From a virus, in the IMG/VR virus record IMGVR_UViG_3300030328_002129, positions 1 to 29,959 of that record: a DNA stretch of 29,959 nt, one strand, 5' to 3'. A program made the position numbers and the translations under genes. The notes beneath the pieces were generated by a model. The model saw only the letters and a program-made list of their open reading frames with translations. It was not told where the DNA came from and made no database searches. Each line of letters starts with the position of its first letter. Position 1 is the stretch's first letter. This document shows, in pieces, positions 1,310 to 15,763 of the stretch.

Positions 1310-1607
1310 CCTTAAACCCTTCAGGTAATTCTGTTGTAGTTACTTCCTGCTTATCTGTTTGTCCTAAATATTGTTTTCCTAGCCATATTAACATAGCCAC
1401 ATTACCATTCTTTGCAGCAGTCCATTGATACTTCCTTAACCTTATCTTTCCACCATCCTGCCCTTTTGCAACATTCTTGGAATAACTCTTACTAATTAAA
1501 TCTTTACTGCATCCAAAAAAAGAAGCTATTTCAGTATTAGTGCAACCAAATCCTGCTAACTGTTCTACTTGCTTTGGATCAATATCATATTTTTTAGGTC
1601 TAGCCAT
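1296..1607 (-). CDS. terS: Terminase small subunit-like DNA-binding protein
   Basis: The 103-aa basic protein starts MARPKKYDID and carries a helix-turn-helix at about residues 23-42 (TNTEIASFFGC, then SKDLISKSY), the usual N-terminal fold of small terminases that recognise the packaging site. A conserved-looking segment with W and LGK near residues 62-80 could form the oligomerisation core. It lies directly upstream of, and overlaps, the large terminase, which is strong positional support. Its ATG overlaps the stop of the ParB-methyltransferase gene by eight bases (ATGGCTAG). A general HTH regulator is the alternative, but synteny favours TerS. Confidence 0.8.
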   Translation of the reverse strand: MARPKKYDIDPKQVEQLAGFGCTNTEIASFFGCSKDLISKSYSKNVAKGQDGGKIRLRKYQWTAAKNGNVAMLIWLGKQYLGQTDKQEVTTTELPEGFKVELL

Positions 1608-2739
1608 GTAATTTTGCTACCTTTCCTGTGTAATCTTCCCATCTTTTTATGATCACATCACAATAATATGGGTCTATTTCCATACCATAACATTTTCTTC
1701 CTGTTTTTTCACAGGCTATTAGTGTTGAGCCTGAACCAAGAAATATATCTAATACACTTTTATATTTTATATTTTTAAACAAACCCACATATAATTCTAT
1801 TGGTTTAGGGCAAGTATGTTTATCCAATAATAAATTTTTATTTGCTTCCTCATGCTTATTTAAGAATCCTGAATTTACATAAACCTCTATAAAATCATCA
1901 TCAAGAATTTTTTTAAATTCACCCCAAAATAGAATAGGCTCACATCTCCTAAAGTGGCTTACTTTCCCTCCACTCATTTTATTTCTACATATCCAATAAA
2001 TAATATCATAAGGGTCTTTATTTATCCAATATTTTTGATAAGCCCAGCCTGTTGTAATTATAATATTATTTGTATGTGCTTTTATATTATTAAACCATTT
2101 ATCACAAAACTCTAAATATTCATCTCCCTTTTTATCTTTATGTGAATTATATTCATATCCAATCCCATAAGGTGGATCAGTAAACACCATATCAGCTTTA
2201 TTACCATCCATTAATTTATCTACATCTTCTTTCTTTGTAGCATCACCACATAGCAATCTATGCTCTCCTAGTATCCACAGATCACCTTCCTTACAAATGC
2301 TTTCTTCTACTCCAGGAACATCATCATCTTCTGTTAAACCAGCTACAACTTCTTCTTCAGGTAATATAAGTTCATCTTCATCAAATCCCCAATCAACAAG
2401 TTCATCAACCTCAAAAAAATTAGCAAGACTATCCATATCCCATTCACCTGTATTTCTATTTAACCTAACATTCAATTCTCTTTCTCTTTCATAAGTTAAA
2501 TCTAATTCAAGCACAGGAACTTCTTTAATATTCATATCTTTAGCCACCTTAACCCTTTGATGCCCTCCAATAATAATATTCTTTCTATCTTTATTTTTAT
2601 TAACTAAAATAGGATCAACAAGCCCAAATCTATCTATTGAATCTTTCAGGTTCTTGTATTGCTCTTTGGTGAGTTGTCTAGGATTGTATTCTGCAAAGAT
2701 TAAGCTATCTATATCTCTTTGCACTAATTTATGTTCCAT
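1600..2739 (-). CDS. ParB-like domain fused to N4/N6 DNA methyltransferase
   Basis: This 379-aa protein has two parts. Residues 1-120 form a ParB/sulfiredoxin-type domain with NPRQLT (19-24) and GGHQR (58-62), the nucleotide-binding box of that family. Residues about 150-379 form an amino-methyltransferase: catalytic DPPY at 188-191, then the HTCPKP segment (309-314), then the SAM-binding motif DIFLGSGST (331-339). Motif IV before motif I marks the beta class, which methylates N6 of adenine or N4 of cytosine. Such fusions are common in phages and usually lack a paired restriction enzyme, so protection from host restriction or epigenetic control is the usual guess. A GAGGAA site precedes the ATG. 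A 62-base gap separates it from the C5 methyltransferase upstream. Confidence 0.92.
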   Translation of the reverse strand: MEHKLVQRDIDSLIFAEYNPRQLTKEQYKNLKDSIDRFGLVDPILVNKNKDRKNIIIGGHQRVKVAKDMNIKEVPVLELDLTYERERELNVRLNRNTGEWDMDSLANFFEVDELVDWGFDEDELILPEEEVVAGLTEDDDVPGVEESICKEGDLWILGEHRLLCGDATKKEDVDKLMDGNKADMVFTDPPYGIGYEYNSHKDKKGDEYLEFCDKWFNNIKAHTNNIIITTGWAYQKYWINKDPYDIIYWICRNKMSGGKVSHFRRCEPILFWGEFKKILDDDFIEVYVNSGFLNKHEEANKNLLLDKHTCPKPIELYVGLFKNIKYKSVLDIFLGSGSTLIACEKTGRKCYGMEIDPYYCDVIIKRWEDYTGKVAKLHG

Positions 2740-2801: not shown

Positions 2802-3431
2802 TTATGGATTAAATAAATCTTGTTGCTCTGTATCTAATTTTATACCTTTTGCTTGATTTAAAATATGCAATCCAAGTTCAGGCTCTACACAATTTCTTAA
2901 AATTTGCCTTTTGTTTTTTATATCATAATTAGATAAATCTATCATTTTTCTTTTTTGTAAAGATTCTACTGTTCCACTTCTGTGATCCCTGTTTTTTATT
3001 TTTATATTTTCTATTTCAAAATTACTCCATATATAATGACCACCAATAAACTTTGGTTCTATTAATGGATTGTAAAATGATCTAGTATTTTCTACAACAT
3101 ATTTACCTGTAAAATAATGTTTTAAAAATAATATTTCTTCATATAATTGCAAGTCAGGGTATATAGCTTTTGTTCCTCTATTTTTAAATCCTAAATTATA
3201 TCTTATCTGACTATGACTTTGACATGGTGGTGAAGTCCATATAAAATCAAATTTATTATAATTTTCTTCTAAATATTTATGTGCATCCCCTAAAAAAATA
3301 CTATCATCAGGATATAAATCATTATATATATCTAATATAGTTATATCATTTTCTACTGCTGTTACCTCAATATCCCCCCCCCATAATTTTCTATTACCAC
3401 CAATACCAGCATATAAATTTAGTATCTTCAT
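2802..3431 (-). CDS. C5-cytosine DNA methyltransferase, compact
   Basis: The 209-aa protein carries the core C5-methyltransferase motifs: SAM-binding motif I LYAGIGG (6-12), catalytic motif IV SPPCQS (67-72, nucleophile C70), motif VI ENTR (114-117) and a motif X-like RNCVEPELGLHI (179-190). It is much shorter than typical 300-400 aa enzymes and I see no clear QxRxR motif VIII or large target-recognition domain, so its specificity cannot be read from sequence. Codons 17-20 (WGGD) are written with nine consecutive G, unique in this AT-rich window and prone to slippage. The ATG overlaps the RusA stop as ATGA with GAGGAA upstream. No cognate restriction endonuclease is recognisable next to it. 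Confidence 0.88.
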   Translation of the reverse strand: MKILNLYAGIGGNRKLWGGDIEVTAVENDITILDIYNDLYPDDSIFLGDAHKYLEENYNKFDFIWTSPPCQSHSQIRYNLGFKNRGTKAIYPDLQLYEEILFLKHYFTGKYVVENTRSFYNPLIEPKFIGGHYIWSNFEIENIKIKNRDHRSGTVESLQKRKMIDLSNYDIKNKRQILRNCVEPELGLHILNQAKGIKLDTEQQDLFNP

Positions 3432-3838
3432 ATTTCCTCTATTATTATTTCAGTTCTAGGTTGCTTACTATAAATCTTTTCAGCTTGTATTCTGCATATC
3501 TGACTATCATCTAATATCATTCTATCTTTGCCTTGAATAGTATCACATATCATCTTCAATAAATTATCTAAATCAGGTGTGTTTGTATGATATTCAGGAA
3601 CTCCATCTTTTAAAACATTAGCATACTTACCTGTTCTGTAGTGGCTTTTAGGTCTAGGCATATAGAATGTAGCAAAAAGCATAATCTGTCCTTCTAGGGG
3701 TCTTTTTGGCTTAAATCTAGCTATTTGTAGCCATATCTGCTTCTTATCTTTAGCACTTGGATCATACATTCTACCTGATCTAGTGCTTCTATGCCTTTTT
3801 AAAGCAATAGGTTTGCCTTTTATTGTAAACTTAATCAT
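3428..3838 (-). CDS. rusA: RusA-family Holliday junction resolvase
   Basis: RusA enzymes are small metal-dependent nucleases that cut four-way DNA junctions, resolving recombination and replication intermediates before packaging. This 136-aa protein has the signature PDLDNLLK (88-95) followed by DD at 110-111. D89, D91, K95 and D110 have the same spacing as D70, D72, K76 and D91 of the Escherichia coli enzyme, so the active site looks intact. It overlaps the upstream PAPS-reductase-like gene by eight bases and the downstream methyltransferase by four, so it is translated with them. Together with the annealing protein at 6798-7340 it gives the phage a minimal recombination set. Confidence 0.93.
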   Translation of the reverse strand: MIKFTIKGKPIALKRHRSTRSGRMYDPSAKDKKQIWLQIARFKPKRPLEGQIMLFATFYMPRPKSHYRTGKYANVLKDGVPEYHTNTPDLDNLLKMICDTIQGKDRMILDDSQICRIQAEKIYSKQPRTEIIIEEI

Positions 3839-4571
3839 CTAACTCATTTATAGCTAAACCACAACTTAAATCACAGCTAATTGGTGGTTCTTTTTTAAAG
3901 TTACCTGCATTGGGATCAAGTTCATCTAAATATATTCTTTCATCTGTTTTTCTATCTCTAAAAATACTATGTTCTATTTTTCTTTCTATTTTAGCCATTC
4001 TATTAAAATGTTCAGGAAAATCTTTTCTAATCTGATTCCAATAACCCATACCACCCTTAACACATCCTATACAATTATTATGATTATATCCTAATTCATA
4101 CATTTTTGGTAGTTCTATTTGTTTATTCCATAATATGCCTAAACAATTTTCTTTTGTAATACCCTTATCTATTAATACCCAATCAACATATAATTCAGGA
4201 TTATAATTTTCAAACTTTTCTGCTCTATGCTTTTCTTCTACTGTGTAGCCAAATATATGTATATCATCAGGTCTTTGATATTTTATTCTTAATTTCTTTT
4301 TTAATTCTGTTGTGCATTTTGCACCCTGAACACCATTTAAATAACCTGATTCAAATACATCAAAATGATCTTTATATTTAGTAGCTTTTAATATTGTAAT
4401 TTCTTTTTTTATTAATTTTTCTATATCTAATAGAAATTTCCTATTACTTGAATGTTCACCACCTGTATCACAATAAACAACAACACATTTATCACCATAT
4501 TTTTTAATTGCATACATAGCAGCAATAGCAGAAGATGCACCACAGCTAAACCATACTACTGCCCTGCTCAT
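3831..4571 (-). CDS. PAPS reductase / N-type ATP pyrophosphatase-like protein
   Basis: The 246-aa protein begins with a PP-loop-like strand-loop (WFSCGASSA, residues 7-15), a variant of the SFSGGKDS loop of the phosphoadenylyl-sulfate reductase / adenine-nucleotide alpha-hydrolase family, followed by YCDTGGEH (33-40). Cysteines C86 (AKCTTELKK), C167 and C170 (CIGC), C233 and C237 could hold a metal or iron-sulfur centre, as in some sulfur-transfer members of the fold. Family members reduce PAPS, thiolate tRNA or contribute sulfur to DNA phosphorothioation (DndC); I cannot choose among these. The loop differs from canonical sequence (C10 and A12 replacing G and K), so substrate use may differ. 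It sits among DNA-processing and methylation genes and overlaps a lipoprotein gene upstream. Confidence 0.75.
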   Translation of the reverse strand: MSRAVVWFSCGASSAIAAMYAIKKYGDKCVVVYCDTGGEHSSNRKFLLDIEKLIKKEITILKATKYKDHFDVFESGYLNGVQGAKCTTELKKKLRIKYQRPDDIHIFGYTVEEKHRAEKFENYNPELYVDWVLIDKGITKENCLGILWNKQIELPKMYELGYNHNNCIGCVKGGMGYWNQIRKDFPEHFNRMAKIERKIEHSIFRDRKTDERIYLDELDPNAGNFKKEPPISCDLSCGLAINELDD

Positions 4572-8083: not shown

Positions 8084-9055
8084 TTACCATACTTCTCTTA
8101 TGGTTAGAGATATATTATACATAGAATCAGTTATTTTCTTAAATTGAAAGCTATCTTGATCAAACATACATATTGCAAAATTATTAAAATCTTTATCAGG
8201 TTGAAATATAAAAGGCAATCCTACACTCTTATGTAGCACTTCAGAGAAAAAATTAGAATTTCCTGATGAATGTAGAAATGATTGTTCCCTGCTGTAATCA
8301 AAATCTATCCCTGAACCATAGGCTGTTAAACTTGAAATTTTAGGTAGTAAATCTTCTTGATCTAAATATGAAAAAGATAAATTCCATATTCTTCTACCAC
8401 TAAAAGCAAGTGGTGCTAATTCAGGTGTAGAAGCATCTATATGCCATGCAGGAAATCCATTTCCCCAATTAGGCTGCTTTTTCCAATAGCTGTTAGAAAG
8501 TGTAGAACCACCTTTAGTTTCTATAGTTTTAGTTCCACCATACTCTATACTCATAGTAAGATTTAAATCAGGGCTATGTGCCATTTCATAAAAATTACCT
8601 ATAACACAACTTGAAACAGGTGATTCATCAGAATAACTACCTTCATAATTTTTTTGTAATGTAAATTCAATTTTTTCAAAATCTGATTTATTTACTTTAC
8701 ATATAGAAAAACCATCATGTTCAGGATTTGTATCATCTTGAAAATTAACTACATCTTCAGATTCACCTGATTCCAATTTAACCCCATCAATAAAAATAAT
8801 TGCCTTCCTTCCACCTAATTGATGCCCTAATACTGCTACAAAAAATTCTTCATGTAATGAATTATGTGTATTTATTTCTCCTGCATTCCATGTTAATCCA
8901 TCTTCTGACAATCCACCTTCAAAATCTTCTCCTTTAACACCATTTGTAGGATTTGTTTTATAAATATTTGGTAAATAATTTTCTTGCCCTGTTGAATGCA
9001 GCCATTCTAAAACATTTACATAAAATTTTGGGGTTTTTACTTGTTGATAGCTCAT
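8084..9055 (-). CDS. Tail-associated virion protein
   Basis: This 323-aa protein is the last gene of the late cluster. The N-terminal part (YVNVLEWLHSTGQ) and a beta-rich middle are followed by a C-terminal segment at 280-323 (LPFIFQPDKD, FAICMFDQDSF, then ISLTIREVW) that I recall from tail proteins of marine siphophages, where it is thought to be a tail-tip or distal component. No enzyme motif is visible. The stop codon lies in the arm of a small hairpin (8073-8091), upstream of the main terminator. Function as a minor tail protein is inferred mainly from position after hub and dockerin genes. Confidence 0.65.
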   Translation of the reverse strand: MSYQQVKTPKFYVNVLEWLHSTGQENYLPNIYKTNPTNGVKGEDFEGGLSEDGLTWNAGEINTHNSLHEEFFVAVLGHQLGGRKAIIFIDGVKLESGESEDVVNFQDDTNPEHDGFSICKVNKSDFEKIEFTLQKNYEGSYSDESPVSSCVIGNFYEMAHSPDLNLTMSIEYGGTKTIETKGGSTLSNSYWKKQPNWGNGFPAWHIDASTPELAPLAFSGRRIWNLSFSYLDQEDLLPKISSLTAYGSGIDFDYSREQSFLHSSGNSNFFSEVLHKSVGLPFIFQPDKDFNNFAICMFDQDSFQFKKITDSMYNISLTIREVW

Positions 9056-9064
9056 AAATTACTC

Positions 9065-9577
9065 CTAATATGATGTTCCTGATGAAATTGATGCTGTTTG
9101 TGATGTCTCTTGCATAGAAGCAGTTACAGTACCACTTAAAATTTTATTACTATTATTTAAAAAGTTATTAGCCATAGTTTGATTATCTTTTTTTGATAAT
9201 AATAGTAAACTCCTGCCTATTCTTTCACCTACTGTATAAGTTGAATCTAAATCTTCTATGCTTATTGTTGAATCTTCAGGATTTGTTGATGATAATTCTG
9301 TATAATCTGTTTGTGCTTCAATAGTTACAGGTAAAAATTCTGCATTTGTATCTACTGCTTTAGCAGATATTATTTTAAATTCACCTTTATAATCAAATAA
9401 ATCTGTTAATAAACCCTGACCTAGTGGGTAAATAATTATTCTATGTGAATTAATATGAAAAGCAAAATTATTAGGTGTTTTATCCATCATTTCAATAGCA
9501 CCCCTGTAATCTATCTGAATTGCTCTACAATTACCATCTACAGAGCAATTACCATCACCATAAGTTAATCTAGCCAT
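9065..9577 (-). CDS. Minor tail protein, 170 aa
   Basis: The 170-aa protein begins MARLTYGDGNCSVDGNC and has a beta-rich first half (FAFHINSHRIIIYPLGQG, LFDYKGEFKI) that looks like a compact tail-tip barrel. The last 60 residues are low-complexity Ser/Thr-rich (VTASMQETSQTASISSG), probably extended and surface-exposed. Two cysteines at 11 and 17 lie close together. No named family is recognised. The ATG overlaps the end of the dockerin gene by eight bases (ATGGCTAG), the same overlap sequence as seen at the small terminase start. Confidence 0.6.
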   Translation of the reverse strand: MARLTYGDGNCSVDGNCRAIQIDYRGAIEMMDKTPNNFAFHINSHRIIIYPLGQGLLTDLFDYKGEFKIISAKAVDTNAEFLPVTIEAQTDYTELSSTNPEDSTISIEDLDSTYTVGERIGRSLLLLSKKDNQTMANNFLNNSNKILSGTVTASMQETSQTASISSGTSY

Positions 9578-10223
9578 TTAATACCCTATCACTTAATGCT
9601 ACTACATCAAAAGGTGTAACTTCACCATCACCATTAACATCTGCAAATTCAGGACTTTTTATTGCTTTTCCTTGCACTACATGATCTGATAATGCCACTA
9701 AATCCCTTAAATCTATAATCCCATCACCATTTACATCACCTGTATTATTTGATAGCTTATAATGGAATTTTAAATATATTTCTGCAACCCTTGAATTATT
9801 TAAAATTATCTGCATTATAATTGTAAATGCTTGTGATTTTGATGTATCTTGTATTTTAAAAAATTCCTGTTTAAAATTTACAAATTCTAATGTTTGCTGC
9901 GAAGCATCTATATCTATATCAATGGTTATATCTATATTTTCCATTAATATATCTATATTATTATTAAATGTAAAAAATCTTAATTTAGCTGTTTCATAAA
10001 AAACTTTTTCATTATTTTCATCTGTATTTATTCCAAATTTTGCTGTAATATTTTCAACAGATAAAACACCATCTTCTAATGATGGTATTAAAAGTGGTGA
10101 ATCTACTTCTATCCCATTCATTCTTGAATAGCTTATCTTTTGCCCTTGATTCCAATTTAAAGAACTTAAATAATAAGAATCTTCTACTTTAGCAGGTTTA
10201 ATATTTACTGAATTAAATATCAT
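9570..10223 (-). CDS. Virion protein with C-terminal dockerin-like domain
   Basis: Residues 1-155 are a beta-rich domain of unknown family with an acidic stretch (DITIDIDIDAS, 98-108). Residues 162-217 form a type I dockerin: two calcium-binding repeats, GDVNGDGIIDLRD (162-174) and ADVNGDGEVTPFD (194-206), each followed by a VALSDxV helix. Dockerins bind cohesins in cellulosomes and related surface complexes; no cohesin is recognisable elsewhere in this window. In a tail gene cluster the domain would lie on the tail tip, so a host-surface or particle-binding role is plausible. One of only eight CG dinucleotides in the window is here (9900). The start overlaps the hub gene as ATGA with little Shine-Dalgarno signal, suggesting coupling. 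Confidence 0.8.
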   Translation of the reverse strand: MIFNSVNIKPAKVEDSYYLSSLNWNQGQKISYSRMNGIEVDSPLLIPSLEDGVLSVENITAKFGINTDENNEKVFYETAKLRFFTFNNNIDILMENIDITIDIDIDASQQTLEFVNFKQEFFKIQDTSKSQAFTIIMQIILNNSRVAEIYLKFHYKLSNNTGDVNGDGIIDLRDLVALSDHVVQGKAIKSPEFADVNGDGEVTPFDVVALSDRVLNG

Positions 10224-15487: not shown

Positions 15488-15763
15488 CTATTTTTTTTTT
15501 CTAAATTGCTCAACTATTGTTAAAGCAATAGCAGTTATTTCTTCATCAGCAAACTTAAACACATCTTCTTCAGATAATGATGTAACATTTTCTATTATTT
15601 GACAAAAAGCATCAAATTCTGATAATTCTTGATTTTGTGTTTTGCTTAATAAGGTATTAACTAATTTCCTAGATTCCATGTTCCATAATTTTAATGGAAC
15701 TTCTATTTCTTTAAAATCAGTATGCCCTAAACTTTTATATGGTTTGGCTTTAATACTATTCAT
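15488..15763 (-). CDS. Tail assembly chaperone, G-like
   Basis: The 91-aa protein (NSIKAKPYKSLGHTDFKEIE at the start, an ISSLSE-like acidic helical middle, and EQFRKKK at the end) follows the major tail protein and precedes the tape measure, the conserved place of gpG chaperones. Its last four codons are AGA AAA AAA AAA followed directly by TAG, so the slippery run ends at the stop, the classic arrangement for producing a small fraction of extended product. No enzymatic motif is present. Confidence 0.85.
   Translation of the reverse strand: MNSIKAKPYKSLGHTDFKEIEVPLKLWNMESRKLVNTLLSKTQNQELSEFDAFCQIIENVTSLSEEDVFKFADEEITAIALTIVEQFRKKK
15491..15500 (-). other. A10 slippery site for -1 programmed frameshift
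   Basis: Ten consecutive A on the minus strand contain the canonical heptamer A AAA AAA and are followed directly by the TAG stop of the G frame. Slipping back one base yields ATA GAT GAT GCA and continues without a stop into the T frame. This is the expected signal for making a G-GT fusion in siphophage tail assembly. Confidence 0.85.

Follow-up and report, generated by a model that had tools for sequence, protein, structure and literature searches.

A G9 tract in a phage C5-cytosine methyltransferase gene: a likely phase-variation switch supported at the gene-family level

It was found that a small DNA methyltransferase gene of a metagenomic phage has nine consecutive G residues in the 5′ part of its reading frame. 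I consider it likely that this G9 is a contingency (phase-variation) tract in an orphan C5-cytosine methyltransferase, although slippage, reversibility, enzyme activity, benefit, and variation within this phage are inferred. The sequences directly reveal the tract and its frames, length variation among homologues, OFF genes that are intact, repeated origin, and both lengths in the contig of a relative. The support for a switch is thus strong for the gene family, while length variation in the phage of the window itself is unproven.

Results

The methyltransferase gene and its neighborhood

The window, i.e. the whole stretch of DNA analyzed here, is a virus record of 29,959 bases (IMGVR_UViG_3300030328_002129). 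It is AT-rich, with 28-35% G+C per 2-kb step, and the minus strand carries its long ORFs, among them terminase, tape measure-like, and tail genes. The gene with the G9 tract sits in a phage record, not in a bacterial genome. The relevant features are as follows.

1600..2739, minus strand: ParB-domain N6/N4 DNA methyltransferase, directly downstream (PF01555 and PF02195; phrog_498, E 2e-92)
2802..3431, minus strand: C5-cytosine DNA methyltransferase of 209 amino acids (PF00145, phrog_363, AlphaFold2 model, fold comparison)
3374..3382, minus strand (C9 on the plus strand): G9 homopolymer in codons W17-G18-G19-D20, proposed slippage or phase-variation tract (sequence, relatives, tract lengths in homologues)
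3428..3838, minus strand: RusA-like Holliday-junction resolvase, upstream of the C5 methyltransferase (PF05866, E 4e-23)
3831..4571, minus strand: PAPS-reductase-like or SspD-like protein (phrog_424, E 4e-50; PADLOC SspD, E 4e-16)

According to the ORF coordinates, the RusA stop and the C5 methyltransferase start overlap. No restriction nuclease was recognized among the window proteins that were scanned (with Pfam and PHROGs, and with PADLOC for three proteins); some ORFs remained unscanned, and a nuclease of an unknown kind could have escaped the scan. The nearest relative, L012, aligns at 92-97% around positions 1600-2739 and 3831-4571 of the window but has no match to most of the ParB-domain methyltransferase gene or to the PAPS-reductase-like gene. 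The cassette in which the G9 gene lies thus appears to be a mosaic.

The 209-residue protein matches PF00145 (E 8e-9; 35.7 bits, cut-off 22) and phrog_363 in PHROGs, and the NCBIfam dcm model scores it below the cut-off of that model. Motif I (LNLYAGIGG), which is near-invariant among 96 homologues, is encoded on the 5′ side of the tract, and the catalytic SPPC (Cys70) and the VEN motif are encoded on the 3′ side. The catalytic Pro-Cys (P69-C70) and the Glu-Asn of the ENV motif (E114-N115) are invariant across the homologue alignment. The AlphaFold2 model (pLDDT 93.5) superposes on DNMT3A/B, M.HhaI, and M.HaeIII with Z of 14-16 (DNMT3A, Z 15.8 over 185 residues; M.HaeIII, Z 14.2 over 186 residues). 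By profile, motifs, and fold, the gene meets the criteria for a C5-cytosine DNA methyltransferase; its 5mC activity and target site are inferred. In the model, the tract corresponds to the loop that connects beta 1 with beta 2, and the length of this loop varies among homologues. Since the loop is length-variable, in-frame changes of the tract should be tolerated, while out-of-frame changes should be null.

The G9 tract in the window

The plus strand of the window reads CCCCCCCCC at 3374-3382, so the G9 is on the minus strand. The coding-strand context is TTA TGG GGG GGG GAT ATT, codons 16-21 of the ORF. An earlier note had placed the tract here, encoding W17-G18-G19-D20, and had stated that all other G or C runs are five residues or shorter; both statements agree with the sequence and with a run census of the whole window, in which G runs reach 4 at most and C runs reach 5 (two such) apart from the single C9. 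The longest homopolymer of the window is a T10 at 15491-15500, at the 3′ end of the ORF at 15488-15763 on the minus strand.

GGG is the rarest glycine codon in the window ORFs (GGT 328, GGA 214, GGC 47, GGG 41; 41/630), and from these counts GGG next to GGG is expected at about 0.4% of Gly-Gly pairs. A shuffle test of G6 words was uninformative, because the single 9-mer counts as four overlapping matches while shuffles average 2.9. The position of the tract decides between a full-length and a short product. As had been predicted, a one-base change breaks the frame before the catalytic motif: tract lengths of 7, 8, 10, and 11 give predicted peptides of 20-23 residues instead of 209, and a restart on the 3′ side of the tract would give a product without motif I.

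Conservation of the tract in relatives

A homology search returned one near-identical relative, the remainder having 53-54% protein identity or lower. L001, L002, L003, and L004 all keep exactly TGG GGG GGG G, although three of these four are at 53-54% protein identity, and L002 keeps the G9 despite many synonymous differences nearby. Mixed glycine codons in close relatives, which had been set beforehand as a refuting result, were therefore not seen. Is this codon choice common in the family? IMG/VR was scanned for W-Gly-Gly at the tract site with any glycine codons, and 45 loci were found. GGG-GGG is used in 33 of them, while about 1.0 is expected from the codon usage of each contig itself. 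When close relatives were collapsed by hand, GGG-GGG was present in 16 of 23 lineages. In L040, L043, L209, L210, and L211, the tract lies one codon later, as Ala-GGG-GGG-GGG-Ser.

Tract length and reading frame in homologues

A frame-blind scan required a run of 7 or more G behind the conserved motif upstream and left the downstream frame unconstrained; it gave about 40 family loci. Three further matches to the pattern (L179, L187, and L204) are other genes and were dropped, and L174, which ends just past its G12 tract, was left unscored. The scan revealed genes that are out of frame (OFF) at G9 (L180, L182, L185, L189, and L206) and at other lengths (G8 in L191, G7 in L198, and G10 in L202). 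In the genome collection, a Bacilli MAG (L135, G7) and a Lokiarchaeota MAG (L161, G9) also have OFF genes. Every OFF gene has 176-210 open codons downstream and retains the catalytic motif. The in-frame (ON) length differs by clade, being 8 or 9.

In summary, among 204 distinct loci, runs shorter than 7 are ON in 170 cases and OFF in none, while runs of at least 7 are ON in 24 and OFF in 10 (Fisher p 5e-9). Some of the short runs had been collected by homology ranking, which favors intact genes; thus, runs of 5-6 G were scanned separately without regard to frame. All 28 (24 distinct) are in frame (p of about 0.006 against the viral long runs). As the loci are related, these p-values are only guides. 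At the level of the gene family, tract length varies among relatives and the downstream frame stays intact, 10 of 34 long tracts being OFF.

No length variation was found in the window's own species, which is represented by two sequences (the window and L001/L012), both G9, or in the G9-GATATTGA group, where all five members including the window are G9. The phase-variable switch proposed in the earlier note is consequently supported by the out-of-frame tracts with intact downstream genes in homologues and by the contig described below, with only G9 seen in the species of the window.

In IMGVR_UViG_3300033463_000374, the contig of a relative, the two ends overlap by 159/160 bases; they are identical except that one end has G9 (ON) and the other G10 (OFF). 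The simplest reading of this overlap may be that one sample contained two real lengths, at which the assembly broke off. The L174 and L210 contigs also end at most about 60 bases from the tract, which is no more than suggestive.

Where OFF and ON genes can be compared, nearly all of their differences are synonymous: 43 synonymous to 4 non-synonymous between L206 (OFF) and L199 (ON), 41 synonymous and 4 in non-synonymous codons between L206 and L200 (ON), and 10 to 0 between L189 (OFF) and L195 (ON). This indicates that the OFF genes have not decayed. The pattern fits OFF genes that were kept functional and switched recently.

A tree was built from the region on the 3′ side of the tract. It is a quick tree with SH-aLRT support only, and L161 lies on a long branch. 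The long-tract label changes 18 times on this tree, and at least 9 changes are forced by the starred branches. A single common origin of the tract is thus not supported. The loop that joins strands 1 and 2 seems to be a permissive spot for such a tract.

Other tracts in modification genes

L193 has the methyltransferase-RusA-PAPS gene order of the window. Its SspD/PAPS-reductase-like gene has a G9 of its own at 9489-9497 (C9 on the plus strand), which is out of frame with the remainder open; the two halves lie in 8917-9656 on the minus strand. L201 likewise has an SspD/PAPS-reductase-like gene with an out-of-frame G9. The homologue in the window has an A7 at the same site (4404-4410, T7 on the plus strand).

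Several further observations were made in passing. An N4/N6-type phage methyltransferase (MVFTDPPY) at L255:2233-2257 on the minus strand has an in-frame G8 immediately before the catalytic motif. A C5 family member in a Bacteroidales contig (L150:2518-2525) has an in-frame G8 near the C-terminal end, not in the usual loop. L066 has, from position 468, in-frame TGA codons exactly at the conserved glycines (YA*L*GNR for YAGLGGNR), suggesting that the phage or its host may read TGA as glycine.

Discussion

In the proposed switch, replication slippage would add or remove one G. A tract of 9 would be read through (ON), whereas tracts of 7, 8, 10, and 11 would stop translation ahead of the catalytic Cys so that no enzyme is made (OFF), and further slippage would restore the frame. 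A burst would then contain mostly ON phages and an OFF minority. Phage orphan C5 methyltransferases are likely to shield DNA from restriction. The most likely benefit would be bet-hedging: ON would be favored where host restriction enzymes cut unmodified sites, OFF would be favored where the host enzymes are methyl-directed, as McrBC is, and switching would let part of the progeny escape methyl-directed restriction.

Could the OFF genes be errors of sequencing or assembly at homopolymers, with all true tracts in frame? All OFF cases lie at runs of at least 7, where errors are also commonest, and all come from metagenome assemblies for which no reads could be inspected. In the same contigs, however, A/T runs of at least 8 within genes gave 26 in-frame cases and not one true frameshift (26:0 against 24:10 for the G tracts, p 0.003); five apparent A/T-run frameshifts all proved to be gene junctions on inspection. 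Long homopolymers are therefore not generally misassembled in these contigs, while an error specific to polyG is not excluded. Moreover, the G9 and G10 contig ends were each supported enough to be assembled, and error leaves the GGG-GGG excess unexplained. I regard such error as rather improbable. It is hardly credible that the OFF copies are dead genes heading for loss. Only L098, which is in frame at the tract yet has an extra in-frame stop on its 3′ side, points in that direction; the open codons and catalytic motif of the OFF genes and their mostly synonymous change oppose it, and pseudogene decay is rejected wherever the comparison could be made.

If the tracts and their variation are real, they need not be beneficial. 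A tolerant Gly-Gly loop may drift to G runs on which slippage sometimes breaks the gene, a mutational liability without selection. The loop does tolerate length change, most loci are ON, and no benefit has been measured. Nevertheless, many lineages use GGG-GGG far more often than their codon usage predicts, though one synonymous change would remove the risk, it recurs on the tree, and the OFF genes are not decaying; I consider a pure liability unlikely, though not to be dismissed. RNA polymerase and ribosomes can slip on long G runs, and the OFF genes are conserved as if they were used. Programmed frameshifting might therefore let OFF genomes make some enzyme, the tract tuning its amount. This is quite doubtful since in-frame lengths predominate, clades differ in their ON length, the short peptides are merely 20-23 residues long, and no conserved alternative-frame product was seen among the homologues examined. 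The contingency tract remains the preferred explanation.

Similar switches are known. Campylobacter Fletchervirus phages are known to vary the phase of their receptor-binding proteins through polyG tracts (Sorensen et al. 2021, as cited in PMC11868660 and PMC11959909). The likeness lies in a phage genome with an intragenic polyG whose length sets ON or OFF; the difference is that the switched gene there encodes a receptor-binding protein, while here, across many unrelated phages from metagenomes, it encodes a DNA methyltransferase, on sequence evidence without experimental proof. In bacteria, phase-variable methyltransferases are well known, e.g. the Type III mod phasevarions (PMC13076061, PMC12707154). 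There too, production of a DNA methyltransferase depends on the length of a repeat tract, but most of the bacterial systems are N6-adenine systems of Type III or Type I, whereas the present enzyme is a small C5 orphan of a phage and may methylate the DNA of that phage. Among cultured phages, Vibrio phages 1.082.O and 1.182.O, Flavobacterium phage stinky9-1, and Gordonia phage Margaret encode members of the same C5 family (about 42-51% identity); in the two Vibrio phages, genes for recombination or nucleases again lie nearby. These four, read from INPHARED, have only 2-5 G at the site in contrast to the G9 of the window, and no cultured phage with a long tract was found among them. A literature search of partial coverage turned up no report of such a tract switch in a phage methyltransferase. 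A polyG switch that recurs on the methyltransferase of the phage itself thus looks like a new form of the known polyG and methyltransferase phase variation.

A wider reading can be offered only tentatively: polyG contingency tracts may have evolved repeatedly in DNA-modification genes of many unrelated phages. Besides the C5 methyltransferase, these genes would include the neighboring SspD/PAPS-reductase-like gene of one phage and an N4/N6 methyltransferase of another, and the resulting mixed modified and unmodified progeny would hedge between classical and modification-dependent restriction. Phase variation is usually treated as a strategy of bacteria, one of its uses being defense from phages. 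If a switch on phage methylation is indeed widespread and repeatedly evolved, phages would hedge epigenetically too. It would account for some of the phage methyltransferase genes that look broken in metagenomes and caution against calling them pseudogenes, and it would offer a ready test of bet-hedging between restriction and methyl-directed defense.
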